Shown here: one piece after another, positions 18,928 through 38,186 of the stretch | Layout: each line of letters begins with the position of its first letter | How positions within the stretch are numbered: the stretch's first letter is position 1 | NCBI RefSeq assembly: GCF_015864575.1 | Contig: NZ_JADYWW010000001.1 | Coordinates: forward strand, 310,001 to 374,000 | DNA: 64,000 bases | DNA from: Salinibacterium sp. SWN248 | GTDB lineage: Bacteria; Actinomycetota; Actinomycetes; Actinomycetales; Microbacteriaceae | Direction of reading: 5' to 3' | Position numbers and translations under genes: made by a program | The notes under the pieces: generated by a model | Seen by the model: the letters and a program-made list of their open reading frames with translations, nothing else | The model's database searches: none | What the model was told of the DNA's origin: nothing

Positions 18928-18963
18928 CTAGCGGCCGAGCCAGCCGCCATCCACGTTGAGGAT
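18928..18963. repeat. Direct repeat, right boundary of island (kduD 3' end)
   Basis: The last 36 bp of the intact kduD-like gene, repeated at 14457-14492 with one mismatch and the same orientation. Confidence 0.75.
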
Positions 18964-19686
18964 TGCGCCCGAGACGTAGTCGGAGGAGCGCGAGGCGAGG
19001 AACACGGTGGCACCCGCGAGGTCGCTGCCGACGCCCCAGCGACCGGCGGGGATGCGGTCGAGGATTGCCTTCGAGCGGTCGGGGTCGTCTTGCAACGCCT
19101 GGGTGTTGTCGGTCGCGATGTAGCCGGGGGCGATCGCGTTCACGGTGATGCCCTTGCCGGCCCACTCGTTCGAGAGTGCTTTCGTGAGACCGGCGATGCC
19201 CGACTTTGCTGCCGTGTAACCGGGAACGTTGATGCCGCCCTGGAAGCTGAGCAGCGATGCCGTGAAGATGATCTTGCCGCGACCGCGCTCGATCATCGAG
19301 CGAGCGATGGCCTGCGTGAGGGTGAACTGACTCGACAGGTTCACCTGAATGACCCGATCCCACAGCTCGGTGGGGTGGTCGACGGCGGGGGCGCGCTCGA
19401 TGGTTCCGGCATTGTTGACGAGAATGTCCACATTGCGGGTCGAGAGAGTCTCGCCCAGAGCGGCTACGGCATCCGGGTCGGCGAAGTCACACGCGATACC
19501 TTCGAAAGTGCGGCCGTACGAGGTGACTGCCTTTTCGATGTCGCTGCCCGAAGCTTCGATCGTGGCGCTGACGCCGATGATGTTCGCGCCGGCGGCGGCG
19601 AGTGCCTCGGCCATGGCGAAGCCGATTCCGCGACGGGCGCCGGTGACGACCGCGGTGGTTCCGGTGAGGTCAAACATGCCGTTCAT
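18928..19686 (-). CDS. kduD-like: KduD-like SDR, 2-keto-3-deoxy-acid-sugar dehydrogenase
   Basis: This is a 252-residue classical SDR. It contains TGxxxGIG in TAVVTGARRGIGFAMA, ILVNNAGTIERAPA, a catalytic Ser in TASLLSFQGG, YTAAK (Tyr and Lys present), VNAIAPGYIATDNTQAL and a C-terminal NVDGGWLGR. This set is characteristic of the KduD/2-deoxy-D-gluconate 3-dehydrogenase group, to which 2-keto-3-deoxy-L-fuconate dehydrogenases also belong. In this locus the latter step, NAD-dependent oxidation after L-fuconate dehydratase, fits best. Start 19686 is preferred because AGAAAGG lies 7 bp upstream; a GTG at 19713 overlapping the previous stop is an alternative. It is second in an operon with the Zn-dehydrogenase, behind the LacI-type operator at 20847. 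Confidence 0.88.
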   Translation of the reverse strand: MNGMFDLTGTTAVVTGARRGIGFAMAEALAAAGANIIGVSATIEASGSDIEKAVTSYGRTFEGIACDFADPDAVAALGETLSTRNVDILVNNAGTIERAPAVDHPTELWDRVIQVNLSSQFTLTQAIARSMIERGRGKIIFTASLLSFQGGINVPGYTAAKSGIAGLTKALSNEWAGKGITVNAIAPGYIATDNTQALQDDPDRSKAILDRIPAGRWGVGSDLAGATVFLASRSSDYVSGAILNVDGGWLGR

Positions 19687-19709
19687 GGGGTTGCCTTTCT
19701 CTGCCGTGC

Positions 19710-20732
19710 TCACTTTTGGCCCGCGACATCCACGAGAATTTTCATTGCTTTACCGGCGGCAAGGTCAGCAAAAGCTTCGCTGGTTTGTGAGAGCGGCACA
19801 ATGCGCGTGATCAACAGATCGGCCGGGATGACGCCGCCATCAAGCAGTTCGATCGCCTTTTCGAAGTCGGTGCGCTGGTAGACGCGCGCTCCCATAATCG
19901 TGAGTTCGCGCCAGAAGACGCGCTGCAGGTTGATCTCGCGCGGCGTGGGGTGGATGGCGACAACCACGAGAGTTCCGCGCACCTTCGCGAGGTCGGTCGC
20001 GCCGAGCACGGCGGCCGCAGCACCCGAAACTTCGAAGACAACGTCGGCTCCGGCGTCCCCGGTCCACTCGTTGACCCAGGCGACCTGATCAACTTCGAGG
20101 GGGCTGAGGGTTGTGAAGCCGAGGGCGTCGATCTGAGCACGGCGGGCAGCATCGATTTCGATGACGGCAACCTCAGCGCCAAATTCGCGGGCGACGGAGG
20201 CGATGAGAACACCGATGGGGCCGCCACCGATAATCACGGCCTTGTCGCCGGGCTTGAGGCCCGAACGGCGCACATCGTGCACGGCAACAGCGGTGGGTTC
20301 GACGAGTGCGGCGTGATCGAGGCGCAGCTCGGGCGGCAACGCAACGAGCGTTTCGGCGGGAACGTTCCATTTGCCCTGCAGGGCGCCGGGGGAGTCGATG
20401 CCGATGAAGTCGAGGTTCTGGCAAATGTGCTGGTTGCCGGCGAGGCAGGCGGGGCAGGTGTTGTCCCACCAGAGCGGCATGACCGTGACGTGGTCGCCGA
20501 CGTTCCAGCCGTCAACGCCATTGCCGAGAGCGGAAATGGTGCCGCTCATCTCGTGACCGAAGGTCAAAGGCAACTGCACGCGGGCATCCATATTGCCGTG
20601 CAGGATGTGCATATCGGTGCCGCACAGCCCGTTGTAGGCGACCGCAATTTGAACTTCGCCGGCGGCCGGAGGCTTCGGTTCGTACTCTTTGACCTCAAGG
20701 CGTTGCTCGCCTACATAACTCACGCTCAGCAC
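19710..20732 (-). CDS. Zinc-dependent MDR dehydrogenase (sorbitol/threonine-DH type)
   Basis: This is a 340-residue medium-chain dehydrogenase. Catalytic Zn ligands are Cys37 in YNGLCGTDMH, His and Glu in FGHEMSG, and a later Glu in LVEPTAVAVHDV. The structural Zn site has Cys residues at CPACLAGNQHIC, apparently only three of the usual four. The Rossmann motif is AVIIGGGPIGVLIA. It oxidises a secondary alcohol of a sugar or acid, or an aldehyde/diol such as lactaldehyde or propanediol, with NAD. It is first in the minus-strand operon with the KduD-like gene and divergent from the CoA-transferase operon, with the shared operator between them. Which step it takes in the pathway is unclear. Confidence 0.88.
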   Translation of the reverse strand: MLSVSYVGEQRLEVKEYEPKPPAAGEVQIAVAYNGLCGTDMHILHGNMDARVQLPLTFGHEMSGTISALGNGVDGWNVGDHVTVMPLWWDNTCPACLAGNQHICQNLDFIGIDSPGALQGKWNVPAETLVALPPELRLDHAALVEPTAVAVHDVRRSGLKPGDKAVIIGGGPIGVLIASVAREFGAEVAVIEIDAARRAQIDALGFTTLSPLEVDQVAWVNEWTGDAGADVVFEVSGAAAAVLGATDLAKVRGTLVVVAIHPTPREINLQRVFWRELTIMGARVYQRTDFEKAIELLDGGVIPADLLITRIVPLSQTSEAFADLAAGKAMKILVDVAGQK

Positions 20733-20846: not shown

Positions 20847-20864
20847 TGATCAAACGATTGTTCA
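20847..20864. promoter_or_regulatory. LacI-type operator, copy 1
   Basis: TGATCAAACGATTGTTCA is an inverted repeat TGATCAA-N4-TTGNTCA with a central CG, as in LacI/PurR-family operators. It lies in the divergent region between the Zn-dehydrogenase/KduD operon and the CoA-transferase operon. Near-identical sites are at 30146 and 32996. Confidence 0.75.
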
Positions 20865-20891
20865 CGAGTATCTACAGAAGGCTGAACAGCA

Positions 20892-22136
20892 ATGACTGAC
20901 CACCACGGCGCACCAACGGAGTCTGCGCCACTGGACCGCCCCCTCGAGGGAATCCTTGTTCTGGACTTCAGCCAATTCTTGGCCGGACCAGTCGCAGCGA
21001 TGCGTCTCGCCGACCTCGGAGCCCGCGTCATCAAGATCGAACGCCCCGGCACGGGAGACATCGGTCGCACCCTCGCTTTCGCCGGTCGCGAGTTCGACGG
21101 CGACACTGTTTCGTTCCACGCGATGAACCGCAACAAGGAGTCGATCACCGCTGACCTCAAGGTCGCCGACGACCTCGCCTACGTGAAAGAGCTCGTCGAA
21201 CGTGCCGACGTGATCATCCAGAATTTCCGCCCCGGCGTAATGGAGCGCATCGGGCTCGACTTTGAATCCGTGCGCGCCATCAACCCCGGCATCGTCTACG
21301 CCAGCGCGACCGGCTACGGCGAAGAGGGCCCGTGGAAAGATCGCCCGGGGCAAGACCTGCTCGCTCAGTCGATGTCGGGCATCCCGTGGCTCAACGGCTC
21401 CAAGACCGACGGCCCCGTGCCGGTCGGGCTCTCGATCGCCGACCACCTGATGAGCTGCCACATCGCCCAGGGAGTCACCGCGCTTCTCGTGCGCAAGTTC
21501 CGCACCGGCAAGGGCGGCCTCGTGCAGACCAGCCTGCTCGAAGCGATGCTCGACCTGCAGTTCGAGCTGCTGAGCACCAAGCTCAACGACGACAGCATCA
21601 CGGTGCAGCGCCACGGCGAGCACTCGGCTCATGCCTTCTTGGCGGCGCCCTACGGCACGTATCCCACCACTGATGGTTACATCGCCATGGCCATGAATCC
21701 ACTGCCGAAACTGGGCGACCTGCTCGGCATTGCAGAACTCAGCGCCATGCTCGACCCGCAGCTCGCCTGGGATCGCCAAGAGTATGTCGAAGAAGTTCTC
21801 GCCGCGCACTTCGCGACCGGCACCACCCAGCAGTGGCTCGACATTCTCGATGCCGGCGACGTGTGGTGCGCTCCCGTACTCACGCTCGACGAACTGCTGG
21901 CCTCAGGCGGCTTCGAAGCGATTCGGATGACGCAGCCCGTCAGCCGCGGAGGCAACGACCTGCTGACGACCCGCAGTCCCATCCGCGTTGACGGCCAAAT
22001 TCTCACGAGCACTAAAGCAGCCCCGACTCTCGGAGAAGACAACGACAGCGTGCGGGCCGAGTTCCCGTCGCGCGCTGCTGCCGCAGCCGCAGCTGCCGGC
22101 GCCGCTCCCGCCGCAACTCAGGAGGCCTCCGCATGA
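20892..22136 (+). CDS. CoA-transferase, family III (CaiB/BaiF)
   Basis: This is a 414-residue class III CoA-transferase with N-terminal GILVLDFSQFLAGPVAAMRLADLGARVIKIE, NRNKESITADLK, the ADVIIQNFRPGVMERIGLDF block and the catalytic Asp in PGQDLLAQSMSG, followed by PVPVGLSIADH. The family moves CoA between carboxylic acids through an aspartyl-CoA intermediate. The C-terminal ~20 residues are an Ala-rich low-complexity tail. It is first gene of a plus-strand operon under the operator at 20847. The next gene overlaps by 4 bp (ATGA). A CoA-transferase is not part of known L-fucose or L-rhamnose pathways, so its substrate acid is an open question. Confidence 0.9.
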   Translation: MTDHHGAPTESAPLDRPLEGILVLDFSQFLAGPVAAMRLADLGARVIKIERPGTGDIGRTLAFAGREFDGDTVSFHAMNRNKESITADLKVADDLAYVKELVERADVIIQNFRPGVMERIGLDFESVRAINPGIVYASATGYGEEGPWKDRPGQDLLAQSMSGIPWLNGSKTDGPVPVGLSIADHLMSCHIAQGVTALLVRKFRTGKGGLVQTSLLEAMLDLQFELLSTKLNDDSITVQRHGEHSAHAFLAAPYGTYPTTDGYIAMAMNPLPKLGDLLGIAELSAMLDPQLAWDRQEYVEEVLAAHFATGTTQQWLDILDAGDVWCAPVLTLDELLASGGFEAIRMTQPVSRGGNDLLTTRSPIRVDGQILTSTKAAPTLGEDNDSVRAEFPSRAAAAAAAAGAAPAATQEASA

Positions 22137-23266
22137 GCCCGACCATCGTTCGCGGAATGACGTGGGAACACGAACGCGGCTACGGCAGCGTCGTGAAGGC
22201 GGCCGAAGCGTATCGCTCGGTGGCTCCCGATGTCGAGGTGCAATGGGAGTACCGCTCACTGCAGGCTTTTGCCGACCAAGATCTGGAGAGTCTGGTTGAG
22301 CAATACGACCTGCTCGTGATCGATCATCCGCACATTCCGGTTGCGGCAGAAGACAAACTCTTCACTCCGCTGAACGGGCGCGGCTTTGACGCCGAGTTGG
22401 CCACGCTGGCAACGCAGTCGGTCGGGCGCTCGCACGAGTCGTACCAACACCTCGGCCAGCAGTGGGGCCTCGCGCTCGACGCTGCCGCGCAGGTTGCCGC
22501 GTACCGCCCCGATCTTCTTGAGGCACCGCCTCGCACCTGGCCCGAGGTGATCGCGCTCGCCGAAGAAGGCCGGGTGCTCTGGCCGTTCAAGCCGGTCGAC
22601 TCCTACTCGAGCCTCATCACGATTGCCGCAGGACTCGGCGAAGACCCGATGGCGACGTCCGGTGTTTTCCTCTCCGAAGACGTACTGACTCGTTCGATGG
22701 AGTTGCTCACGCGCTTGGCCCGCTTGGTGCCCGCTGACAACGCCGGCTTCAACCCGATTCAGGTCGCTGATGTGCTCGCCGAGAGCGACACCTTCGCGTA
22801 CTCGCCGTTGCTCTTTGGTTACACGAACTATTCGCGTGCCGGCTACCGGTCGAACCGCGTTCAGTACATCGACATCCCGAGCTCGACGCGCGGCCTTGCC
22901 GGTTCGCTGCTCGGTGGCGCTGGAATCGCAGTCTCGTCACGCAGCCAGGTCATGGATGCCGCGATCGCGCACGCCTTCTGGCTCGCCTCGGGCGACGTGC
23001 AAGAGAGCTCGTACTACGACGGTGGCGGCCAGCCCGGCAATGCGGTCGCGTGGGAAAGCGCCCGCACCAACGCCGACAGCCTCGACTTCTTCACCGGCAC
23101 GCGCGCAACGCTCGAAGGCGCCTACCTGCGCCCTCGCTTCGCGACCTACATCGAACTGCAAAATGCGGTGTCCCCGCTCGTGACCGCAGCCCTCTTGGGC
23201 GAGATCACAATTGCTGAACTACGCGAACGCCTCGATGCGGGCGTCGCAGAATGGCTGGTGCGCTGA
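22133..23266 (+). CDS. Solute-binding-protein-like protein without signal peptide
   Basis: This is a 377-residue protein with the type-II periplasmic-binding fold of sugar ABC receptors (COG1653-like): [54 protein letters not shown], and [20 protein letters not shown] near the end. The start codon overlaps the CoA-transferase stop (ATGA), and [18 protein letters not shown] leaves no room for a signal peptide or lipobox, so it should be cytoplasmic. No permease is adjacent, and the true lipoprotein receptor of the locus is encoded at 33117. Coupling to the CoA-transferase and MaoC genes suggests an enzymatic or sensing role on the same substrate. Confidence 0.82.
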
Positions 23267-23721
23267 TGCTCACGAAAGACCGCTGGTATGACGACCACGA
23301 GGTAGGGGAGCGTCGCGAGACCGTCGGCCGCACCATCACCGAAGCCGACATCGTGCTGCACGCTGGCCAGACCGGCGACTTCTTTCCGCACCACATGGAT
23401 GCCGAATGGATGGCGACGCAGCCCGCCGGGCAGCGCATCGCGCACGGCACGCTAATCCTCTCCGTTGCGGTGGGAATGACAGCGGGCGACATTAACCCGC
23501 AGGCGATGAGTTATGGCTATGACCGCATCCGCTTCATCCGCCCCGTTTTTATCGGCGACACCATTCGAGTGACGGCGGAGATCAACGAAATGTCGTTGCA
23601 CGCGAAGCGACCGGAGGAGGCGGGCTACCTGCACGAACTGGTGACGGTAACCAATCAACATGGTGACACCGTGATGGTGCTGACCCACCTGTATTTGGTC
23701 AATCGACGTACCAGCGAGTAG
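23266..23721 (+). CDS. MaoC-like hydratase/dehydratase
   Basis: This is a 151-residue hot-dog-fold protein of the MaoC/(R)-specific enoyl-CoA hydratase type. The catalytic segment [14 protein letters not shown] carries the Asp and His of hydratase motif 2, followed by [15 protein letters not shown] and the [20 protein letters not shown] strand typical of the family. The ATG at 23266 shares a base with the previous stop (TGATG), so translation is coupled. As the partner of a CoA-transferase it may hydrate or dehydrate an acyl-CoA derived from the deoxy sugar. The mesaconyl-CoA system is one precedent for such a pair. Confidence 0.88.
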
Positions 23722-23743: not shown

Positions 23744-24757
23744 ATGGCTACTTTGAGTGATGTTGCAACCCGCGCCGGAGTCTCGGTGTCGGCGGTCTCG
23801 CGTGTGCTGAGCGAAAAGCCGGGCGTGCGGGTGAGCGTGGCAACCCGGCAGCGCATTCACGATGCCGCGAAAGAACTCAACTACCGGCCCAACTTCACGG
23901 CGCGGGCGCTCAAGTCATCGCGCACGCACGCGGTCGGCCTTGTCGTGCCCGGCGTCACGAACGCCATCTTCGCCGAGCTCATGCGCGGTGTCGAAGAGGA
24001 AGCCAGAACCAAGGATTACATGGTGCTGATCGCGAGCACCGAACGGTTGCCCGAGGGCGAAGAGTCCATCCCGCGCCTCATGGGCGAGGGCCGAGTCGAT
24101 GGTGTTCTCGTGCAGTTCGGCGACCACTTGAGTGGCGACGACCTGCGCACCGTGACCGACAGCGGCCTGCCCGTGATCTCCATCAACACGATCAACCCCG
24201 GCAGCGGTGGCTCGGTGCGTCTTGAAGATGAGGCCGGGATGCGCCTCGCGACCGAGCACCTCATCGAACTCGGCCACACCCGCATTGGGTATGCCGGCGG
24301 TGTGCCCACCTCGGAGTCAGGTCAGCGTCGTCTCGCCGGATTCCTCGAGGCGATGGCTGCGGCGAAGCTCACGGTCGAACCCGAACTTGTCACTGACTTT
24401 GGGTACTACCCCAAGCAGGGCGCTCAGGCTCTGGATGCGATGGCCGAGTTGTCGACCCCTCCTACCGCGGTGGTCGTGGCCAACATCAACGCTGCTCACG
24501 GTGTGCTCTCTGAGGCACGACGGTTGGGCATCCGCGTTCCCGAAGACATGTCGATCGTGGCCATGCACGACACGTGGACGGCCGAAATTGCGTGGCCGCC
24601 GCTCACGTGCGTGCGCTTGCCGCTGTATGAACTTGGCCGTGCCGCCATGGCGAGTCTGTGGGATAACATCAACTCCGGAACCGCCGAAGACCGTGTCATT
24701 GCCGATCCAGCACCGGAGCTGATCGTGCGCGAATCTACTGCGCCACCGGCGCGCTAA
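23744..24757 (+). CDS. LacI-family transcriptional regulator
   Basis: This is a 337-residue regulator. The N-terminal LacI HTH reads TLSDVATRAGVSVSAVSRVL, followed by the hinge region LNYRPNFTARALKSSRTHAVGLVVPGVTN. The periplasmic-binding-like effector domain covers ~60-330 (HLIELGHTRIGYAGG, then MSIVAMHDT). It lies 22 bp after MaoC and 21 bp before the aldose dehydrogenase, inside the operon. It is the only LacI protein in the window and so the obvious candidate to bind the three TGATCAA-type operators at 20847, 30146 and 32996. The inducer is probably a deoxy sugar or one of its acid intermediates. Confidence 0.93.
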   Translation: MATLSDVATRAGVSVSAVSRVLSEKPGVRVSVATRQRIHDAAKELNYRPNFTARALKSSRTHAVGLVVPGVTNAIFAELMRGVEEEARTKDYMVLIASTERLPEGEESIPRLMGEGRVDGVLVQFGDHLSGDDLRTVTDSGLPVISINTINPGSGGSVRLEDEAGMRLATEHLIELGHTRIGYAGGVPTSESGQRRLAGFLEAMAAAKLTVEPELVTDFGYYPKQGAQALDAMAELSTPPTAVVVANINAAHGVLSEARRLGIRVPEDMSIVAMHDTWTAEIAWPPLTCVRLPLYELGRAAMASLWDNINSGTAEDRVIADPAPELIVRESTAPPAR

Positions 24758-24778: not shown

Positions 24779-25753
24779 GTGAAGACCAGATCAACTCAGC
24801 GCGGACTTGAACTGACCGAGATCGGCCTCGGTGCCGCCCAACTCGGCAACCTCTACCGTGAAACCACCGACACTGAGGTTGAAGAGGGCGTTGCTGCCGC
24901 GTGGGACGCCGGAGTTCGTTACTTCGACACCGCACCCCACTACGGCCTCGGGCTCTCCGAGCGCCGCCTCGGCGAACAACTGCGCACCCACCCGCGCGAC
25001 GAATACGTAATCTCGAGCAAGGTCGGCAAGCTTCTCGTGCCCAACCCCGGTGGAGAAGACCGGATGGATGACCAGGGCTTCGCCGTGCCCGCCGTCACCA
25101 CACGACAGTGGGATTTCAGTCGCGACGGCATCCTCCGCTCAGTCGAAGAATCTCTCGCCCGCACCGGACTCGACCACATCGATGTGCTCTACATGCACGA
25201 CCCCGACGACCACTTTGAGCAGGCGTCGACGGAGGGCATCGCGGCTCTCATCGAGCTACGCGAACAGGGCGTGGTGAAAGCCGTCGGTGCGGGCATGAAC
25301 GCGGCGGCGCCGTTAGCTGAGCTAATTCGCCGTGCGGACGTCGACCTCGTGATGTGCGCTGGCCGCTTCACTCTCATCGACGACGACGCACTTGCCGACC
25401 TGATGCCGCTCGCTCTCGAACGCAACGTCGGCATCGTGGTTGCCGGCGTCTACAACTCCGGATTGCTCGGTCGCAATCGTCCAAGCCCCGACGCGACTTT
25501 CGACTACGGGCCTGTTCCGCCCGCCATTCTTGAGCGGGCCAACCGTGTAGCTGACGCGTGCGAAGCCCACGGTGTGACGCTGCCCGAAGCCGCTATTGCA
25601 TACGTGCTGCGGCATCCGGCTGTCGTCTCGGTGGTGGTCGGCGCTCGCGGTGGCGACCAGGTGCGCTCGAACATTGAGCGCTACGAAGCCGCGATGCTCG
25701 ACGGGCTGTGGGCTGACCTCGAAGCTGCCGGGCTGGTCGCTGCGCTCTCCTAG
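24779..25753 (+). CDS. Aldo/keto reductase-type aldose 1-dehydrogenase (L-fucose DH-like)
   Basis: This is a 324-residue AKR TIM barrel. GVRYFDTAPHYGLGLSERRLGEQL carries the Asp and Tyr of the tetrad, VISSKVGKLL the Lys, and VLYMHDPDDHF the His. The C-terminal cofactor loop is VVVGARGGDQVRSNIERY. It resembles the D-threo-aldose 1-dehydrogenase/L-fucose dehydrogenase group, which oxidises L-fucose to its lactone with NAD(P). It begins with GTG and is last in the CoA-transferase operon. Mutarotase, lactonase and L-fuconate dehydratase in the same locus supply the adjoining steps. L-rhamnose is an alternative substrate. Confidence 0.88.
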   Translation: MKTRSTQRGLELTEIGLGAAQLGNLYRETTDTEVEEGVAAAWDAGVRYFDTAPHYGLGLSERRLGEQLRTHPRDEYVISSKVGKLLVPNPGGEDRMDDQGFAVPAVTTRQWDFSRDGILRSVEESLARTGLDHIDVLYMHDPDDHFEQASTEGIAALIELREQGVVKAVGAGMNAAAPLAELIRRADVDLVMCAGRFTLIDDDALADLMPLALERNVGIVVAGVYNSGLLGRNRPSPDATFDYGPVPPAILERANRVADACEAHGVTLPEAAIAYVLRHPAVVSVVVGARGGDQVRSNIERYEAAMLDGLWADLEAAGLVAALS

Positions 25754-29998: not shown

Positions 29999-30057
29999 CG
30001 GCTTCCTTGCCTTTTGCGATCGCAGAGCGACCGGGACTGCTTCCTGAAATTCGACTC

Positions 30058-30084
30058 TGAATCGATTCAGGCTGAATCGATTCA
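30058..30084. promoter_or_regulatory. Tandem palindromic operators upstream of the rhamnosidase gene
   Basis: TGAATCGATTCA occurs twice, at 30058-30069 and 30073-30084. Each copy is a perfect 12-bp palindrome with a central CG. The centres are 15 bp apart. They lie ~60-85 bp upstream of the GH78 start. They resemble LacI-family sites but differ from the TGATCAA-type operators in this locus, so either another regulator or a second mode of the same one is implied. Confidence 0.7.
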
Positions 30085-30145
30085 ATAGTGACGCAGCGTT
30101 CTACCCCTGTCAAGGGGTGTGGTGAACCACTAATTCACACCCTTG

Positions 30146-30163
30146 TGATCAAACGATTGATCA
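30146..30163. promoter_or_regulatory. LacI-type operator, copy 2
   Basis: TGATCAAACGATTGATCA is a perfect 7-bp inverted repeat TGATCAA/TTGATCA around ACGA. It lies 48 bp upstream of the start of the dehydratase-RraA-lactonase operon. It is the best of the three related sites. Confidence 0.8.
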
Positions 30164-30211: not shown

Positions 30212-31381
30212 ATGGGACTCACTGACACAGCCCTAACCATTACCGCCGTGCGCGCAGTGTTGCTTTCGCACCGGTACCAGCCCGGAGAAGAACTGACGTG
30301 GGTAGGTGGCACCATTTGGTCGTGGGATGCCGCGCTCGTCGAAGTAACCCTCTCTGATGGAACCACCGGAATCGGGGAAGCGGGAGCGGGCATCATGGCC
30401 GCCGCCGCCGTACCCGGAATCGTCGATGCCTTCCGCCCCTACGTTCTCGACCACGAGTTCGCTCACCCGCTCGACGTCGCTGACCACCTTCGCGCGTACA
30501 CCGCCTTCTGGGCGCGCGGAGGAATGCTCAACGGCGTTGCTGGAGCAATCGAAACTGCAGCCGTGGATGCCGTCGGCAAGCGCCTCGGCGTTCCCGCCTA
30601 CGAGGTGCTCGGTGGCCTCAAGCGCGACTGGATCGAGTCGTACGCCAGTGGCGGCCTCGGCACCACCTTCGGCGAGGTTTCCGACTGGGCCGCGGCTCAG
30701 ATCGAAGCCGGCTTTGGCACTGTGAAGTTCCGCGCCATGACCGATCCAGACACCACCATCAAGCTGCTCGACCACGTGACCGCGCTGCTGCCCGAGGGCG
30801 TGCAGTTCGTCATCGATGCTGTGCAGGCCTGCGCCTCTGACCCGTGGCCCGTCGACGAAGCAATTCGCGTCGGCAAGAAGGCTGCCGAACTCGGAGCCCG
30901 CTGGTACGAAGAGCCCTGCCAGGCGGATGACGTGGCTGGCTACGCCGCCGTGCGTGCGGCCGTGAACGTGCCGATCTCCGGTGTCGAATCCAACGGAACC
31001 GTGCGGGACTTCGCGCAACTGCTCGACGCCAACGCGCTCGACGTTGCTCAGCCCGACGTCACTTTCGTGGGTGGCCCCAAGGCCTTCGCGCAGGTCGCCG
31101 AGCTCGCTCACGCCGCCGGCGTGAAGACCGTGCCTCACGTGTGGGGCAGCGGCGTTACGTTCGCCGCCAACCTGCACACCGTGCTTGCGAACCCCTACGT
31201 TGAGCTCTTCGAGTACTGCACCCTGCCCAACCCGTTGCGCGAAGCAATGCGGGTGGAAGAGGTCGACTTCAAGGATGGCGGAATCGTGGCTCCGAAGGCT
31301 CCCGGCCTCGGCATCCAGCTGACTCCCGAAATCGAAGCGCTGTTCCCCTTCAGCCCCGGAGGTGGACATGTCATCCGCTAA
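30212..31381 (+). CDS. Enolase-superfamily sugar-acid dehydratase (mandelate racemase type)
   Basis: This is a 389-residue enolase-superfamily protein. The capping domain comes first; the barrel has FGTVKFRA (KxR catalytic strand), metal ligands Asp in FVIDAVQ, Glu in WYEEPCQ and Glu in SGVESNG, and a catalytic His in VPHVWGSG. This is the mandelate-racemase subgroup, most of whose members dehydrate aldonic acids. The ribosome site is GAGGAG. It is first of three genes behind the operator at 30146; RraA overlaps its 3' end. It differs strongly from the L-fuconate dehydratase at 36870, so the locus may handle two sugar acids, for example L-rhamnonate and L-fuconate. Confidence 0.88.
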   Translation: MGLTDTALTITAVRAVLLSHRYQPGEELTWVGGTIWSWDAALVEVTLSDGTTGIGEAGAGIMAAAAVPGIVDAFRPYVLDHEFAHPLDVADHLRAYTAFWARGGMLNGVAGAIETAAVDAVGKRLGVPAYEVLGGLKRDWIESYASGGLGTTFGEVSDWAAAQIEAGFGTVKFRAMTDPDTTIKLLDHVTALLPEGVQFVIDAVQACASDPWPVDEAIRVGKKAAELGARWYEEPCQADDVAGYAAVRAAVNVPISGVESNGTVRDFAQLLDANALDVAQPDVTFVGGPKAFAQVAELAHAAGVKTVPHVWGSGVTFAANLHTVLANPYVELFEYCTLPNPLREAMRVEEVDFKDGGIVAPKAPGLGIQLTPEIEALFPFSPGGGHVIR

Positions 31382-32060
31382 CGCCGCCGGCGCCGCCACC
31401 AGCGACTCGGGTTTCACGCCGCAGCCCGGCGACGAACGCTTGACGACCGCGATTCTCAGTGACTCGTGCGACGAATCAGGGCTGCGCCACCAGGTACTCA
31501 ACCAGCGGTACGCTCCCATCACGCCGGGTTCGCGTGCCTTTGGCCGTGCCCGCACGGTGCGCTTCGCTCCGGCGCTCGAATCAGATCTCGATGACCCGTA
31601 CAAAGAGTCGATCGACTTCATTGACGGCATCGGCGCTGGCCAGATGATTGTCATCGCCACCGACAGCAGCAACGACTCGGGCTTCTGGGGCGAACTGTTT
31701 AGCGCGGCGGCCCTGGGCGCGAAAGCCTCTGGAGTCATCACCGACGGCAACCTACGCGATACCGACAAGATCGCCGAACTCGGCTTTCCGTCGTTCTCGC
31801 GTTCGCGCCGCCCCATCGACTTTCGAGCCCGGATGCGCGTCATCGCCTCCGACGTTGTTGTCGAGCTGGGTGGGGTGCTGATTGCGCCCGGTGATCTCGT
31901 GATGGCCGATGATGACGGAGCAGTCGTGATCCCGCAGTCGCGCGAAGAAGAAGTGCTCACGCGGGCTCGCGCCCGAGCATCCAATGAATCGACGGTTCTC
32001 GCAGAATTGCTCGCCGGAGATTCATTGCGCACCGTGTGGGAACGGCACGGCATTCTCTAA
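31368..32060 (+). CDS. RraA-like protein / HMG-aldolase family
   Basis: This is a 230-residue RraA-fold protein: LTTAILSDSCDESGLRHQ at the N-terminus, GAKASGVITDGNLRDTDKI with the Gly, Arg and Asp of the divalent-metal pyruvate-aldolase site, and VAPGD-like VLIAPGDLVMADDDGAVVIP. True RraA regulators are ~160 residues; this longer form resembles the 4-hydroxy-4-methyl-2-oxoglutarate aldolases. The ATG at 31368 lies 14 bp inside the end of the dehydratase gene, with GGAGGT upstream. It may cleave a 2-keto-3-deoxy acid to pyruvate plus an aldehyde, since no other aldolase or hydrolase for that step is in the locus. Confidence 0.85.
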   Translation: MSSANAAGAATSDSGFTPQPGDERLTTAILSDSCDESGLRHQVLNQRYAPITPGSRAFGRARTVRFAPALESDLDDPYKESIDFIDGIGAGQMIVIATDSSNDSGFWGELFSAAALGAKASGVITDGNLRDTDKIAELGFPSFSRSRRPIDFRARMRVIASDVVVELGGVLIAPGDLVMADDDGAVVIPQSREEEVLTRARARASNESTVLAELLAGDSLRTVWERHGIL

Positions 32061-32087: not shown

Positions 32088-32954
32088 GTGGTTTTTCCAA
32101 TCATCGACGCTCACCAGCACATCTGGAACCCCAATCGGGCTCACTATGACTGGCTCGACGAATCACTGGCACCGATCAATCAGGTGATGACCCTTGATCA
32201 ACTCCTTCCTGAGTTGCGGGATGCCGGTGTCGATTACACGGTTCAAGTGCAGTCAGCAGACAACTTCGATGACACGCGTTTGATGACGGAGTGCGCGGCC
32301 GCTAACCATGAGGTTGCGGCGATCGTGGGCTACGCGCCCCTCGATCGTCCCGCGCAGGCGGCCCGCACGATCGAGTCGTGGGAGGGTGACACTCGCATGG
32401 TGGGGGTGCGCACTCTCATCCACAATAAAGAAGACCCGGAGTGGTTGCTGCGGCCCAATGTCGACGAGGGGCTCACGGTGCTGGAGCGCGCCGGGCTCAC
32501 CTTCGACGTGGTTGCCGTTCTGCCGGAGCACTTGGCGCTGATTCCTGAATTGTCGCGGCGGCATCCGGAACTTCGCATGGTCATTGACCACTTGGCGAAA
32601 CCGCCCATCGGGCTCCAGGAGCGCGAGCCCTGGTGGTCGGCTATCGCCGCGGCGGCAGAAAACCCGAACGTCTACGCCAAGGTCAGCGGGCTGTATTCGG
32701 CGGCTGGTGATCCGCAGCAGTGGACGACCGAATACGTGCGTCCGTTCTTTGAGCGGGCCCTCGAGGTTTTCGGGGCGAAACGCTTGATGTACGGCGGCGA
32801 CTGGCCCATTTCGGTGCTCGCCGGCGGGTACACGCGAGTGTGGCAGGGCCTCCAGCCGCTCTTTGACAGCGTGGATGCCGCGGACCGCGAGCAGTTGCTT
32901 GGCCGTACTGCGGCAGAGTTCTACCGCATCGATCCCGCTCGCATTGGTTGCTAA
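32088..32954 (+). CDS. Amidohydrolase-family sugar lactonase (L-fuconolactonase-like)
   Basis: This is a 288-residue TIM-barrel amidohydrolase of COG3618. It begins IIDAHQHIWNP (HxH metal-site motif), has MVGVRTLIHNKEDPEWLL, the conserved MVIDHLAKPP strand with its His, VYAKVSGL, and RLMYGGDWPIS with the catalytic Asp. This combination marks L-fucono- and L-rhamnono-lactone hydrolases. GTG start, 27 bp after RraA. It opens the lactone made by the aldose dehydrogenase to give the acid for the dehydratases. Confidence 0.9.
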   Translation: MVFPIIDAHQHIWNPNRAHYDWLDESLAPINQVMTLDQLLPELRDAGVDYTVQVQSADNFDDTRLMTECAAANHEVAAIVGYAPLDRPAQAARTIESWEGDTRMVGVRTLIHNKEDPEWLLRPNVDEGLTVLERAGLTFDVVAVLPEHLALIPELSRRHPELRMVIDHLAKPPIGLQEREPWWSAIAAAAENPNVYAKVSGLYSAAGDPQQWTTEYVRPFFERALEVFGAKRLMYGGDWPISVLAGGYTRVWQGLQPLFDSVDAADREQLLGRTAAEFYRIDPARIGC

Positions 32955-32995: not shown

Positions 32996-33013
32996 TGATC
33001 AAACGTTTGCACA
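32996..33013. promoter_or_regulatory. LacI-type operator, copy 3
   Basis: TGATCAAACGTTTGCACA shares its first ten bases with the sites at 20847 and 30146, and the right half is degenerate. It lies 103 bp upstream of the ABC receptor gene, in the only sizeable gap before it. Confidence 0.7.
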
Positions 33014-33116
33014 ACTTCCGCGGTTGGTATAACGTTTGAGCACCGGAGAATTCGAGCCGTTCCAGGGCCTTGTTCTCTCCACTACGAAGCAGTAGAAATC
33101 TCACCAAGGAGTGTCA

Positions 33117-34442
33117 ATGAAGACCAAGAGGTTCCTTTCCGCCAGTGCAGGAGTGGCCATAATTTCGGCCGCTGCACTCGTTCTATCCGGCTGTTCAGCT
33201 GACGGAGGCGCCACCGCCCCCGAGCAGACTGACTCGGGTGGAAAAATCACGGTGTGGGTTGATCCGCCCCGTGTTCCCGCCGCAGAAGCTTTCCAAGAGG
33301 CACACCCCGAGATCGAAATCGACGTTGTGCAGATCGATGGAACCGTTGGTGGCCAGACCGTGAAGCAGGCATTCGCCAACTTCGACTCCGCCGGCTCCGG
33401 ATGGCCTGACGCCATCTTCTTCCCCTCCAACGACGACATTGCGTGGGCAACTGGTGCTGCCAGCAACTACGCTGCCGACCTCACCGATCTGCTTCCCGAT
33501 GTCATCGATGGTTACGACCCCGCAGTGCTTTCGTTCTGCGACATCGATGGTCAGATCCGCTGCCTCCGCAACGACGCTGCACCCGACGTGTTCTGGTACA
33601 ACAAGGCCTTCTTCGACGAGAACGGCTACACGCTGCCCACCACGTGGGAAGGCTACGGCGACCTAGCTGTGGAGATTGCAGCAGACCACCCCGACAAGAT
33701 CAGCGGATTCCTCGGCGACGCCTACGCCGTCAACCGTTACCTTCAGGCCGCGGACTGCCCCACGAACGACCGTCTCTCAGAGTCGGAAGTTCACATCAAC
33801 CTCGATGACCCGAACTGTGTTCGCGCCAACGAACTGCTCACACAGATGTATGACGGTGGAGCACTCACCACACAGGGCATCTTCGACGGTGACGCCGCAG
33901 CAGCTGGCGTCAACCTCGTGATGAGCCCCGGTGCCGTCTGGTGGGGCAACTATCTCTTCCGCGACACCTGGAAGATTCCTGCCGGCGAGATGAGTGCAAG
34001 CGCACCGTTGACCTGGGAAGGCGAATCAAGCCCGACCGCCGGTAACGAAGGTGGCGGCCTCTGGGGCGTCTCCTCGCACATCACCGGAAAGCAGCTCGAA
34101 AACACGCTGACCTTCGCCACCTTCGTCGCGACTGACCCGGCATGGCAGGTTGAGCTCTCAACCGGTCTCCCCGGCTATGGCCCGATTCAGGATGCTTGGC
34201 TCGACAAGCTCGCAGAAGACGGCTACTTCGCTGATGTTTCCTCCGTGCAGCAGGCATTCAAGGATGCAGCGGCAGCAGTAGCGCCGTACTCCTACATGCT
34301 CTACGACACCGGTGCAGCCTGGACCGAAACGGTCAGCCCCACGCTGATCGCGGATGGATCCGTCAGCGATGCACTCAGCACCTTCGGTACTGAACTCGTC
34401 AACCGCGCCAACTCGGTCGGCTACACGGTCACCGCCGAATAG
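33117..34442 (+). CDS. Sugar ABC transporter substrate-binding lipoprotein
   Basis: This is a 441-residue type-I-cluster sugar receptor. A lipoprotein signal with lipobox LSGC (Cys at ~26) follows a hydrophobic stretch (AGVAIISAAALVL). The mature protein has GKITVWVDPPRVPAAEAFQE, DVFWYNKAFFDENGYTLPTTWEGY and VMSPGAVWWGNYLF. ATG 33117 has AAGGAG upstream. It is followed by two permease genes but no ATPase gene. It is expected to capture a deoxy sugar or oligosaccharide freed by the secreted rhamnosidase. Confidence 0.92.
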   Translation: MKTKRFLSASAGVAIISAAALVLSGCSADGGATAPEQTDSGGKITVWVDPPRVPAAEAFQEAHPEIEIDVVQIDGTVGGQTVKQAFANFDSAGSGWPDAIFFPSNDDIAWATGAASNYAADLTDLLPDVIDGYDPAVLSFCDIDGQIRCLRNDAAPDVFWYNKAFFDENGYTLPTTWEGYGDLAVEIAADHPDKISGFLGDAYAVNRYLQAADCPTNDRLSESEVHINLDDPNCVRANELLTQMYDGGALTTQGIFDGDAAAAGVNLVMSPGAVWWGNYLFRDTWKIPAGEMSASAPLTWEGESSPTAGNEGGGLWGVSSHITGKQLENTLTFATFVATDPAWQVELSTGLPGYGPIQDAWLDKLAEDGYFADVSSVQQAFKDAAAAVAPYSYMLYDTGAAWTETVSPTLIADGSVSDALSTFGTELVNRANSVGYTVTAE

Positions 34443-34467
34443 AAGTAACCAGCTAGGCACAGCAGGT

Positions 34468-34497
34468 GTGGGGGTTTCAGATCCTTGAGGCCCCCAC
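34468..34497 (+). terminator. Intercistronic hairpin after the receptor gene
   Basis: A 7-bp GC stem (GTGGGGG with CCCCCAC) is extended inside by TCA/TGA, with no T tract after it. Such hairpins between receptor and permease genes usually stabilise the receptor mRNA or attenuate downstream expression rather than ending transcription. Confidence 0.65.
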
Positions 34498-34534
34498 GCT
34501 CTGTTCCACTCCCGAACTCATAGGCGAGGACTAC

Positions 34535-35515
34535 ATGAGCAGCTCAACGCTAGCCACGAAAGGCACGGAGCCACCGGCCACCGGCCCCCGTGCATCCACC
34601 ACACCCCGGCGTCACCGTACACGCCACGCGGAATCACGCGGCGCCTGGATTCTGCTTGCCCCCTACCTCGCGCTGCTTCTTGTTGCCGCAGCGATCCCCA
34701 TTGGCTATGCCTTCTGGATCGCCCTGCAAAAAGCTCCAACACTCGTCGACCCCACCAGCGGATTCGGCGGCTTTGACTCGTTCATCACGGTAATCACCGA
34801 CTATCGGTTCTCCGGAACGTTCATCAACATCTTCTCCGTCATGATCGTGTGGTTGCCGCTCATGATGGTCGGCATCGTCGGCCTAGCCTTGCTGGTTCAT
34901 GCCAGCCCCGGCCGCTTCGGCGACACAATGCGGTTCTTCTACTTCATCCCGGGAGCGTTGAGCGGAATCGCGAACTTCGTGCTCTGGGTTTACCTCCTTC
35001 ACCCCACCCAGTCACCGCTCGCGCCGCTCTGGCAAGAAGTCGGGTTCGGGTCGCTGAAAGAGATCGTGACCGACGGCAACATGCCGATGATCCTCACCGG
35101 AATGTTGTTCTTCCAAGGTGTCGGAACCTGGATCATCGTCGTCAACGGTGGCCTCAACGGCATCCCTGACGAAATCTTTGAAGCCGCCAAGATCGACGGC
35201 GCGAGCGCCTGGGATCTGGCGTGGCACATCAAGCTTCCGCTCATCCGCCCCTGGATTGGCTACGCCGCCCTCATGAACCTTGCCTATGGATTCCAGCTCT
35301 TCTTGGAGCCCTACCTGCTGCGACAGATTTCGTCTGGCGCGATCGCCGGCGAATGGGCACCAACCCAATTGGGTTACGCCTTCGCTTTCACTAACCGAAA
35401 CTTCCCGGCCGCAGCAGCACTCTCCATCATTCTGCTCGTAATCACCCTCAGCATTGGAGTCGTCATCGTGATGAAGAGTGGACTCTTCGGCGACGAAAAG
35501 GAGAAGAAGCGATGA
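34535..35515 (+). CDS. Sugar ABC transporter permease (MalF-like)
   Basis: This is a 326-residue inner-membrane permease. A ~40-residue basic cytoplasmic N-terminus is followed by six hydrophobic segments. The EAA loop that contacts the ATPase reads EAAKIDGASAWDLAWHIKLP. The ATG at 34535 has GCGAGG upstream. The gene overlaps the next permease by 4 bp (ATGA). No ATP-binding subunit is encoded nearby, so a shared MsiK-type ATPase elsewhere is likely. Confidence 0.92.
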   Translation: MSSSTLATKGTEPPATGPRASTTPRRHRTRHAESRGAWILLAPYLALLLVAAAIPIGYAFWIALQKAPTLVDPTSGFGGFDSFITVITDYRFSGTFINIFSVMIVWLPLMMVGIVGLALLVHASPGRFGDTMRFFYFIPGALSGIANFVLWVYLLHPTQSPLAPLWQEVGFGSLKEIVTDGNMPMILTGMLFFQGVGTWIIVVNGGLNGIPDEIFEAAKIDGASAWDLAWHIKLPLIRPWIGYAALMNLAYGFQLFLEPYLLRQISSGAIAGEWAPTQLGYAFAFTNRNFPAAAALSIILLVITLSIGVVIVMKSGLFGDEKEKKR

Positions 35516-36441
35516 GCAACAGCGCTCCCGGCGTCGTCGGCGCCAAACACTGGACCGTCGGCCGAATTGCCCGCATCACCGTCATGGTGATCGTTGCTGC
35601 CGCCTTCATCCTTCCCATCATTGGCTTCATTGCGATGGCCTTCCGCAGCCAAGAGGGTGTCCTTGCGGGCACCGACGGATTCCTTGGTCTCGGCGGTGTC
35701 TCGTGGGACAACGTTGTGTTCAGTTGGAGCCAGATCAACGGCTTCGGCCCCGGTGATGGTGGCCTCTTCACCCGCTGGGTAGGAAACTCCCTCGTGATTG
35801 CCATCGTTGGTGGGGTGCTCGCCCTTATCGCGGCGCTTCCAGCGGGGTATGCGCTAGCGCGACTGCGATTCCGTGGCCGCAAGGTGCTGCTCTTCGCCAC
35901 CCTGCTCGCCATGGTGATGCCGAACACTGTTCTCGTCATCCCGCTGTTCCTCGAAGTGAACGCGATCGGAGCCGTCGGCCAGCTCTGGCCGGTCGCCGTC
36001 ATCATGGGCTTCTTCCCCTTCGGCACCTACCTCGTCTATATCCACTTCATGACGACCATGCCGCAAGAGCTCGTAGAAGCAGCCCGCATCGATGGCCTCA
36101 GCGAGATTTCTACCTTCTTCTACGTGGCACTGCCCATCTCGAAGCAAGTCGTCGCGCTCGTCGCGTTCTTCTCCTTCGTGGCCAACTGGACGAACTTCTT
36201 CCTGCCGCTGGCTCTACTAACCTCGAACCAGGAAAACAAGACGATTTCGATCGGCATCCAAGAGCTCATCGGCGCGAGCCCACTGTTCAATGCAACAGTG
36301 GCGGCCGGCCTCGACGTGAAGCTCTACATGCCCCAGCTCGCGCTCGCCACGTTCATCTCCATGATCCCGCTGCTGATCGTGTTCCTCACGGCCCAGCGTT
36401 TCCTGATGCGTGGACAAACCGTTGGTGCGGTGAAGGGATAA
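35512..36441 (+). CDS. Sugar ABC transporter permease (MalG-like)
   Basis: This is a 309-residue second permease with six membrane segments and the EAA loop EAARIDGLSEISTFFYVALP. A C-terminal cytoplasmic segment (TAQRFLMRGQTVGAVKG) is usual for MalG-like proteins. ATGA overlap with the upstream permease; the mutarotase gene begins 2 bp after it. Confidence 0.92.
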   Translation: MSNSAPGVVGAKHWTVGRIARITVMVIVAAAFILPIIGFIAMAFRSQEGVLAGTDGFLGLGGVSWDNVVFSWSQINGFGPGDGGLFTRWVGNSLVIAIVGGVLALIAALPAGYALARLRFRGRKVLLFATLLAMVMPNTVLVIPLFLEVNAIGAVGQLWPVAVIMGFFPFGTYLVYIHFMTTMPQELVEAARIDGLSEISTFFYVALPISKQVVALVAFFSFVANWTNFFLPLALLTSNQENKTISIGIQELIGASPLFNATVAAGLDVKLYMPQLALATFISMIPLLIVFLTAQRFLMRGQTVGAVKG

Positions 36442-36443
36442 CC

Positions 36444-36767
36444 ATGAAACGAGTAGCCCAGGTCATCGGCCTCCCACCCGAGAACCGCGACGAGTACGAG
36501 CGGTACCATGCCGCCGTGTGGCCAACGATTCTCGAACGACTCGCGGCCAGCAACATCCACAACTATTCGATCTATCGTCACGGCGACCTGCTGTTCTCGT
36601 ACTTCGAATACACGGGGGACGACTACGAAGCCGATCAGGCAGCGATTGCCGCGGACCCCGAGACGAAGCGGTGGTGGGCTCTTCAAGAACCGCTGCAGCA
36701 GCCTCTGGATGATCGTGCCGAAGGCGAGTGGTGGAAAGAGCTGCCCGAGGTCTTCCACGTTGACTAA
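36444..36767 (+). CDS. rhaM-like: L-rhamnose/L-fucose mutarotase (RhaM fold)
   Basis: This is a 107-residue ferredoxin-like protein of the RhaM family (DUF718): RVAQVIGLPPENRDEYERYHAAVWP with the active His, NYSIYRHGDLLFSYFEY with the Tyr, and a C-terminal WWKELPEVFHVD. The family interconverts anomers of L-rhamnose, and some members act on L-fucose. It follows the permease gene by 2 bp and precedes L-fuconate dehydratase, supplying the correct anomer to the aldose dehydrogenase. Confidence 0.92.
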   Translation: MKRVAQVIGLPPENRDEYERYHAAVWPTILERLAASNIHNYSIYRHGDLLFSYFEYTGDDYEADQAAIAADPETKRWWALQEPLQQPLDDRAEGEWWKELPEVFHVD

Positions 36768-36869
36768 CTGACCAGCCACCTAGCGATACCGCGCACCGCA
36801 GCGCACCAGATGCGCCTCACCCGCGCAGACATACCTCTTATTGGTTCTGAGCAAGGAGAACTCTTCAGC

Positions 36870-38186
36870 ATGACTACTATCACCAGCGTCGACGTCTATG
36901 ACGTGCGTTTTCCGACGTCGCTCACCGCCGACGGCTCAGACGCCATGAATAAGGATGGCGACTACTCGGCCGCCTACGTTGTACTCCGCACCGACGAAGA
37001 GGGCGTCGCGGGTTACGGCTTTACCTTCACGATTGGTCGAGGCAATGACATCTGTGCGCTCACTGCTGAGCAGCGGGCTGCACCGCTTGTTGGCCGGGAT
37101 GTCGATGAGATCGTCGGCGACCTCGGCGGCATTTACCGCGAGCTGAAGTCTGACTCGCAACTGCGCTGGCTTGGACCAGAAAAGGGTGTCGAGCACTTGG
37201 CGATGGCCGCCGTGATGAATGCCGTGTGGGATCTTGCTGCTCGCCGTGCGGGTAAGCCGCTGTGGCGTTTGCTTGCCGACATGACTCCTGAGCAGCTCGT
37301 CGACACCGCCGATTTTCAGTACCTCACCGACGCCCTCACTAAAGAGGAAGCGATCGCGATGCTTCACGAGCTCGCTCCCACCAAGGAGCAGCGCATCGCC
37401 GAACTCACCGAGTCGGGGTACCCCTGCTACACGACGAGTGCCGGCTGGTTGGGTTACTCCGACGAGAAGCTTCGCCGTCTCTGTCAGGAGGCTGTGGATG
37501 CTGGCTACCGCCACATCAAACTGAAGGTCGGCGCAAACCTTGACGAGGACATCCGTCGCTGCGGTATCGCTCGCGAAGTGATCGGTGCCGACGCGAAGCT
37601 CATGATCGACGCCAACCAGGTGTGGGATGTCAATGAGGCAATTGTCTGGGTGAAGGCGCTTGCCGAGTTCAACCCGCTGTGGATCGAAGAGCCGACGAGC
37701 CCGGATGACGTGCTCGGCCATGCCGCGATCCGTAAGGCTGTTGCTCCGATCGGTGTCGCCACGGGAGAGCACGGCATGAACCGTGTGCTCTTCAAGCAGA
37801 TGTTCCAGGCCGAAGCCATCGACTTCTGCCAGCTCGACTCTGCCCGCCTCGCGGGCCCGAACGAGATCATCGCCGTGTACCTGATGGCCAAGAAGTTTGG
37901 CGTTCCTGTCTGCCCGCACGCTGGTGGCGTTGGCCTCTGCGAGCTCGTGCAGCACCTCTCGATCTTCGACTACGTTGCCGTGTCAGGCACGCTCGAGAAC
38001 CGGGTAACCGAGTTCGTCGACCACCTGCACGAACACTTCGTTGACCCCTGCATCGTCGAGAACGGCGCCTACCGGGTGCCGATGGCACCGGGCTACTCGG
38101 CGCAGATGCACGAGTCGTCGGTCGCCGAGTTCTCGTTCCCCGCGGGGAGCTACTGGGTGGGTGTCGCTGCGGCTGTCGCGTCGTAG
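36870..38186 (+). CDS. fucD-like: L-fuconate dehydratase
   Basis: This is a 438-residue enolase-superfamily enzyme close to L-fuconate dehydratases. It has the long N-terminal capping domain with [19 protein letters not shown] and [17 protein letters not shown] as the KxK strand, metal ligands in [20 protein letters not shown] and GVATGEHG, and the catalytic His in [12 protein letters not shown]. The reaction is L-fuconate to 2-keto-3-deoxy-L-fuconate. The start at 36870 has AAGGAG upstream; the frame extends further but with no family match. It is last gene of the importer operon, with no separate operator seen in front of it. Confidence 0.92.

Follow-up and report, generated by a model that had tools for sequence, protein, structure and literature searches.

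Class III coenzyme A (CoA)-transferases shift CoA between acids via an aspartyl intermediate. Hydration of an acyl-CoA at C2-C3, or the reverse dehydration, is the reaction of MaoC and crotonase enzymes; in the dehydration of L-carnitine by CaiB/CaiD, CoA can cycle between substrate and product. L-fucose-type sugars are abundant in algal and plant polymers. Enolase-type dehydratases yield a 2-keto-3-deoxy acid without CoA, and we know of no acyl-CoA step in the described oxidative L-fucose/L-rhamnose pathway. Passages of a study of Klebsiella michiganensis propose that deoxyribonate is catabolized via deoxyribonyl-CoA, with a CoA-transferase encoded in the cluster (PMC6365646). In a 64,000-nucleotide (nt) stretch of the Salinibacterium sp. 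SWN248 genome (the window), genes for a class III CoA-transferase (CoAT), an apparently signal-less solute-binding-protein homologue (SBPL) and a MaoC hydratase form a trio. The set recurs in distantly related bacteria and, incompletely, in an archaeon, which suggests a route of deoxy-sugar breakdown via CoA-linked sugar acids in some microbes.

An initial annotation of the window had made conservation of this adjacency elsewhere the test of its own proposal, and the trio does recur: CoAT directly adjoins SBPL in 51 of the 53 SBPL loci compared with the window, and lies in the same cluster in the other two, about 4.5 kb off in Jannaschia (L080) and beyond an intervening crotonase gene in Rhizobium Q54 (L100). 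The loci, from Actinomycetota, Pseudomonadota and Bacteroidota, are a non-random set. They comprise all 14 genome-contig loci, 20 of the 23 Micrococcales places (E <=1e-20; the window itself, a second copy in genome G047 and a two-piece copy in genome G200 were left out) and 19 plasmid loci picked for variety from 145 records; the whole genomes sampled were those of Actinomycetota, and plasmid records represent the other phyla. A short locus with CoAT 39 nt on from SBPL (L074) stands outside the count. A MaoC or crotonase-type hydratase lies within the stretch in 52 of the 53 loci, and the sole stretch without one (L042) ends at a contig end. In plasmid searches, SBPL (E limit 1e-3) matched 145 records and CoAT (1e-60) 152, with nearly equal genus counts, and the two matches lay at most 400 nt apart in 31 of the 32 records listed for both. 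The module is patchy in distribution: a phylum-wide draw found SBPL (E 1e-20) in at least 3 of 296 genomes, at most six candidates being scored in each.

In the window, an ATGA overlap joins CoAT to SBPL, and SBPL and MaoC overlap by TGATG if MaoC starts at 23266, a start that is more likely than the in-frame ATG at 23251, as a relative (L040) begins at the equivalent position. The three translationally coupled reading frames, like the LacI regulator and L-fucose-type dehydrogenase that follow them after gaps of 22 and 21 nt, are as initially annotated. With gene starts taken from annotation or chosen by us, the CoAT-SBPL overlap is exactly 4 nt in 27 of 35 representative pairs, including four of the five in which SBPL comes first; such overlaps in both gene orders suggest co-translation of the partners.

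Two main types of locus were distinguished. Type I, with MaoC, comprises the window, 13 of the 14 genome-contig loci, 11 loci of a family that we take to be Micrococcaceae (f14) and 13 plasmid loci. Type II has the order CoAT2-SBPL2-crotonase-FAH and was found at nine Micrococcales loci and in Variovorax, Streptomyces and Pseudosulfitobacter; Sinorhizobium K101 carries it without FAH, and the Jannaschia and Rhizobium loci are variants. Here a crotonase unrelated to MaoC takes its place in a like setting, and the seven type II crotonases compared retain both catalytic glutamates of enoyl-CoA hydratase, at the positions that we assume for them. No other observation argues as strongly for actual formation of a CoA thioester as this exchange of unrelated hydratases. 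In the CoAT tree and in the SBPL tree of the 35 pairs, a fully supported branch separates type II from the rest, which dates the pairing to no later than the choice of hydratase. The Mantel correlation (r) between CoAT and SBPL is 0.88 over these pairs and 0.94 over 28 type I pairs; it is also high for CoAT-MaoC (0.90) and SBPL-MaoC (0.85).

The protein families fit the predicted chemistry. The CoA_transf_3 profile covers the full length of CoAT (1-366 of 366), and D155, in the motif PGQDLLAQ, is invariant in 19 of 19 aligned rows and lines up with the PGYD aspartate of a solved formyl-CoA transferase, which we take to be the catalytic residue; CoAT therefore has the domain and catalytic residue of a class III CoA-transferase and is predicted to have transfer activity. 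It scores below the cut-off of all seven listed substrate-named NCBIfam equivalogs, the best being SucGlutTfsCaiB (200.6 of 750 bits). MaoC matches MaoC_dehydratas with 78.8 bits (cut-off 27), and D43 and H48 (numbered from 23251), presumably the Asp/His dyad of MaoC/PaaZ hydratases, are invariant in 15 of 15 rows; hydration or dehydration activity is predicted from this domain and dyad. The MaoC family of the clusters (for example, L071 39094-39555) also closely matches PDB 4ffu (E 4e-78, profile A3), a solved structure deposited just as 'oxidase'.

SBPL has the solute-binding-protein fold, its match to SBP_bac_1 (E 1.3e-4, 22.5 bits) falling short of the cut-off of 26, and its conserved sequence opens at about residue 6 with LRGxTWxHxRG, a start of the mature type. 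As judged by hydropathy, it is without an export signal: none of the 53 rows of alignment A4 has a 12-residue value above 1.6 within its first 40 residues. These rows include the window and three members of a distant family, SBPLb, among them L069, whose row began at a late start and was re-tested. Nine of 11 control binding proteins linked to ATP-binding cassette (ABC) genes exceed every SBPL row; the other two, L071 (1.38) and L068 (0.77), do not, and their annotated starts look late. An AlphaFold model of a single SBPL sequence (pLDDT 37.8) was not relied on. The two-piece SBPL of G200 (G200:C2:307588-308594), a second copy there, is split between different frames and is possibly a decayed or mis-sequenced gene.

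A shared operator ties the trio to sugar genes. Position 20847 is no gene start; it is the first base of a LacI-type palindrome, TGANCAANCGNTTGNTCA, which occurs three times in the window against 0.24 expected, a number reached in none of 100 shuffles. The genome has just two perfect sites, both in the window, and five with at most one mismatch, three of them in the window. With up to two mismatches, the operator precedes CoAT in all 13 loci L031-L043, which are from close relatives; L044 has no site, and none precedes CoAT in L045-L064. The motif CAAACGATTG is present in all nine CoAT-upstream gaps compared. The window sites link the trio to an ABC importer and to the dehydratase/lactonase operon starting at 30212, and the proposed placement of the trio in a deoxy-sugar locus is thereby supported. 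The LacI protein of the trio operon is the candidate reader of these sites.

Features of the locus (window coordinates unless stated otherwise).
Feature	Position	Strand	Evidence and remarks
Class III (CaiB/BaiF) CoA-transferase, CoAT	20892..22136	+	PF02515, E 6.6e-97
SBPL, solute-binding-protein fold, predicted without signal peptide	22133..23266	+	
MaoC-family hydratase/dehydratase	23266..23721	+	PF01575, E 3.4e-22; frame also open from ATG 23251
LacI-family regulator	23744..24757	+	PF00356, PF13377
Aldo-keto reductase, L-galactose/L-fucose dehydrogenase type	24779..25753	+	PF00248
Zinc alcohol dehydrogenase (Tdh/IolM-like), divergent	19710..20732	-	PF08240, PF00107
KduD-like short-chain dehydrogenase, overlaps zinc alcohol dehydrogenase	18928..19713	-	TIGR01832, 319 bits (cut-off 339)
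LacI-type palindromic operator TGATCAAACGATTGTTCA	20847..20864	+	before CoAT, in divergent gap to zinc alcohol dehydrogenase; 0 mismatches to TGANCAANCGNTTGNTCA
Second operator TGATCAAACGATTGATCA	30146..30163	+	before 30212 operon; 0 mismatches
Third operator TGATCAAACGTTTGCACA	32996..33013	+	before importer; 1 mismatch
Enolase-superfamily sugar-acid dehydratase	30212..31381	+	PF13378
RraA-like aldolase family	31362..32060	+	PF03737
Amidohydrolase, L-fucono-1,5-lactonase type	32088..32954	+	NF052480, E 1.4e-49, 169 bits (cut-off 400 not reached)
ABC sugar importer	33111..36441	+	binding protein 33111-34442; permeases 34466-35515 and 35512-36441
L-rhamnose-mutarotase-like gene	36444..36800 (end approximate)	+	tblastn, 56% to RhaM of L065
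L-fuconate-dehydratase-like enolase	36810..38186 (start probably 36867)	+	62% to annotated L-fuconate dehydratase of L065
Remote Gfo-FAH-SDR operon	G000:C1:16398-19095 (L107 899-3596)		degenerate operator copy before Gfo

This genome, of 3.05 Mb and close to Salinibacterium, has one SBPL; the next-best relative of CoAT in it is 35% identical, and the nearest named loci (L031-L035) share 93-98% SBPL identity. Dehydrogenase, lactonase, dehydratase, short-chain dehydrogenase (SDR) and FAH hydrolase are all present by homology alone. The importer binding protein begins with a lipoprotein-like signal. The solved structures closest to the aldo-keto reductase are L-galactose dehydrogenases (E 3.1e-34), and galactonate dehydratase is among the solved relatives of the 30212 enzyme (E 2.1e-38). 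A site with two mismatches lies 34 nt before the remote operon, about 312 kb away; such sites are weak evidence by themselves, 26 forward sites against seven of a control pattern being found genome-wide. The Gfo of this operon shares 56% identity with the one in a Persicobacter cluster; the kind of Gfo found alongside the module in other genomes thus occurs in this one as well, perhaps as a member of the same regulon. The idea that aldo-keto reductase and Gfo replace each other, taken from Herbiconiux (L038, L039), was dropped, since this genome has both.

Of the divergent pair upstream of the trio, the zinc alcohol dehydrogenase is retained in L036-L039 and L043 and, with the KduD-like SDR, in Persicobacter (L084); it was not seen in L040 or L041. 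A large alpha-L-rhamnosidase gene (25862-30085, minus strand) between the aldo-keto reductase and the 30212 operon is also present in L033 and was not detected at the equivalent place in L031, L032, L034 and L035, and is thus a variable insert that does not belong to the module. Elsewhere in the window (12187-14424), a 745-residue open reading frame resembles, by eye, a luciferase-type flavin monooxygenase fused to an FAD-linked (berberine-bridge-type) oxidase.

Cluster neighbourhoods in other genomes point to L-fucose or a near relative, given the alpha-L-fucosidases and fucose-type genes among them; the lactonase-type amidohydrolase and L-galactose-dehydrogenase-like reductase of the window agree. 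Rhizobial and roseobacter loci hold an importer, a mandelate-racemase-type enzyme, mutarotase, Gfo, MaoC and SDR, with L-fuconate dehydratase or UxaA and/or an FAH hydrolase, one of which scores 432 bits (cut-off 500) to 2,4-didehydro-3-deoxy-L-rhamnonate hydrolase. Sinorhizobium meliloti pSymB bears CoAT, SBPL, MaoC, Gfo, SDR and FAH genes, the CoAT-SBPL pair lying about 18 kb from MaoC in strain R28. In Bacteroidota (two Persicobacter loci and Rufibacter), SBPL and SBPLb occur with two CoATs, Gfo, MaoC and a RhaT-like symporter; neither the annotation nor our searches showed importer permeases next to the clusters. With two CoA-transferase genes and signal-less binding proteins of two unlike kinds, these clusters (L084 4118-8794, L069 8136-12932 and L066 13983-18678) seem each to comprise two pairs of CoAT and binding protein. 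Alpha-L-fucosidase is encoded in the clusters of Persicobacter psychrovividus, Croceibacterium and the haloarchaeon Halostagnicola, and LacI, IclR and GntR genes variously flank the clusters.

The Halostagnicola larsenii plasmid cluster (L097 3430-14231) has a CoA-transferase, an AMP-binding ligase, MaoC, two Gfo genes, a mutarotase and an amidohydrolase; no SBPL was found in it, and signal-less SBPLb is present instead. The ligase, together with the crotonase in MaoC's place in type II, favours real acyl-CoA chemistry, as the initial annotation had supposed. The SBPLb family, found in six plasmid records at E 1e-20, is not confined to CoAT clusters, since an Arthrobacter record (L098) has permease genes alongside and no annotated CoAT. 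On a Halobellus limi plasmid (L103 2889-18932), a cluster in which no SBPL was found comprises a TRAP (tripartite ATP-independent periplasmic) importer and genes for crotonase, MaoC, CoA-transferase, SMP-30 lactonase, Gfo, FAH and aldehyde dehydrogenase. TRAP importers, which are typical for acids, also adjoin CoAT in L080 and L100.

The reading that we favour, to which we give slightly less than an even chance, is that CoAT and SBPL together form a two-protein CoA-transferase for a 6-deoxy-aldonic acid, with MaoC dehydrating the thioester. The acid, L-fuconate or a close epimer, would be made from the imported sugar by mutarotase, a 1-dehydrogenase (Gfo and/or the aldo-keto reductase) and lactonase. 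Cytoplasmic, sugar-binding SBPL would provide recognition of the polyhydroxy acid, CoAT would transfer CoA onto it by the aspartate route, and MaoC, or crotonase in type II, would remove water; the C3 hydroxyl would be lost from the aldonyl-CoA to give an enol and then a 2-keto-3-deoxy acid, freed when CoA is handed on to a further substrate molecule, in the manner of CaiB/CaiD. The pathway would be completed by SDR and FAH enzymes. Dehydration to a 2-keto-3-deoxy acid fits the SDR and FAH steps that are present; it also fits the clusters of Bradyrhizobium and Thioclava, in which no SBPL was found and DHDPS-family genes lie near CoAT. Of the CoA branch originally proposed for the trio, the genetic part is upheld by the conservation and the shared operator; the identity of the acid and the choice between adding and removing water are predictions here too.

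Several observations weigh against this reading. Two of the 53 loci (L069, L084) were reached via MaoC matches, and many are close kin: five of the 14 genome-contig loci are near-identical and of Salinibacterium type, and L040 and L041 are near copies, so that independent cases are fewer than 53. Tree agreement was set aside as proof of CoAT-SBPL contact, because shared descent gives the same signal. By tblastn, no SBPL was found in some CoAT/hydratase clusters, namely those of Bradyrhizobium, Thioclava and Halobellus and the type II cluster of Martelella. L-fuconate dehydratase is also encoded in each of the 12 type I Micrococcales genomes sampled, which makes a CoA route look unnecessary there, and the idea that the module simply replaces this enzyme was dropped for Micrococcales; it may still apply to Bacteroidota and Croceibacterium, in whose four plasmid records (plasmids alone) the gene was not found at E 1e-20. 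An enolase-family gene lies nearby in eight of 13 type II loci, and any argument from a missing dehydratase step thus rests on few loci: no enolase-type gene was annotated or detected in four type II stretches (L056, L070, L076 and L079), and L058 is too short to judge.

It is possible, if unlikely, that SBPL is itself an enzyme on a binding-protein fold, converting the sugar acid or its thioester, while CoAT and the hydratase each catalyse a step of their own. MqnA, MqnD and Thi5 are enzymes with related folds, and the 38 columns invariant across 20 diverse SBPLs, many of them polar or aromatic (W11, R15, D64, H65, D116, Y230, Q300, R333), resemble an active site more than a tolerant receptor. 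However, these residues would equally suit a ligand cleft, the R333 region aligns with the RP motif of trehalose-binding LpqY proteins, only four invariant columns are left once the three SBPLb rows join, and CoAT stays close in 53 of 53 loci. We consider it just as improbable that the module handles a modified sugar acid (3-O-substituted or epimeric 6-deoxy-aldonate), with elimination or re-addition at C3 of the thioester feeding the L-fuconate dehydratase route. The window indeed encodes two enolase-type dehydratases besides the trio, and L-fuconate dehydratase (E <=1e-120) is present in 16 of 17 SBPL-positive (E <=1e-20) Micrococcales genomes compared to 93 of 297 overall (Fisher p 4e-8, relatedness not corrected), a co-occurrence by which the CoA branch may serve another epimer or a modified acid; but no demethylase, esterase or sulfatase is constant across the annotated clusters.

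That SBPL is a cytoplasmic sugar sensor or buffer, while CoAT and MaoC process lactate or some other small acid formed as an end product, is very doubtful: a D-lactate dehydrogenase gene does lie near the Croceibacterium cluster, but SBPL follows CoAT rather than one kind of regulator and, by established chemistry, MaoC does not dehydrate 2-hydroxyacyl-CoA such as lactoyl-CoA. Mere neighbourhood without joint function, for which nothing speaks beyond shared descent among close relatives, is scarcely credible in view of both gene orders, varied neighbours, two hydratase families and three phyla.

The two-protein CoA-transferase that we favour would have wider consequences. An ABC-type binding protein may, although we hold this only tentatively, have been recruited to the cytoplasm as a subunit of a CoA-dependent sugar-acid dehydratase, or even as its catalyst. 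Actinomycetota, Pseudomonadota and Bacteroidota would then share an undescribed branch of deoxy-sugar breakdown in which CoA is cycled over polyhydroxy acids; a second signal-less binding protein, only distantly related, stands in like clusters of Bacteroidota, an alphaproteobacterium and a haloarchaeon. If this reading is right, a CoA-thioester branch is added to the breakdown of L-fucose-type sugars, and a transport receptor has, in a rare case, been reused inside the cell as part of an enzyme; this would also explain genes annotated as extracellular solute-binding protein despite having no export signal, and account for the orphan MaoC structure 4ffu.

Searches of the open-access literature, assessed largely from listings, gave no description of the CoA-transferase/binding-protein pair or of the gene set; among fuconyl-, rhamnonyl-, gluconyl-, aldonyl-, galactonyl- and deoxyribonyl-CoA, only the last was found, in one paper. 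Polymer synthesis is the context in which passages of PMC9676036 treat MaoC and CoA-transferases. In Variovorax, deletion of a lactonase abolishes growth on L-fucose, and the portion of text concerned mentions neither a CoA-transferase nor MaoC (PMC12911387). Among described systems, CaiB/CaiD likewise couples a class III CoA-transferase to a hydratase, there a crotonase, acting on a beta-hydroxyacyl-CoA; it differs in its carnitine substrate, the window CoAT reaching 68 of the 413 bits required of L-carnitine CoA-transferase, and to our knowledge it has no binding-protein partner. The oxidative L-fucose/L-rhamnose pathway has all its step types here by homology, most of them behind the same operator. 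The K. michiganensis route is alike in that a sugar acid is proposed to be catabolized as a CoA thioester, the one precedent that we found, which qualifies the initial remark on known oxidative L-fucose and L-rhamnose pathways having no acyl-CoA step (PMC6365646). It differs in that activation is by a CoA-synthetase, followed by a beta-hydroxyacyl-CoA dehydrogenase and thiolase; its CoA-transferase is proposed to free glycerate at the end, and the passages concerned describe no binding-protein partner (PMC6365646). From maltose/trehalose-type ABC solute-binding proteins, SBPL differs in its apparent lack of a signal peptide and in being genetically tied to a CoA-transferase rather than to permeases. 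Every chemical step of the proposed route has a precedent; the role of SBPL would be the new element.

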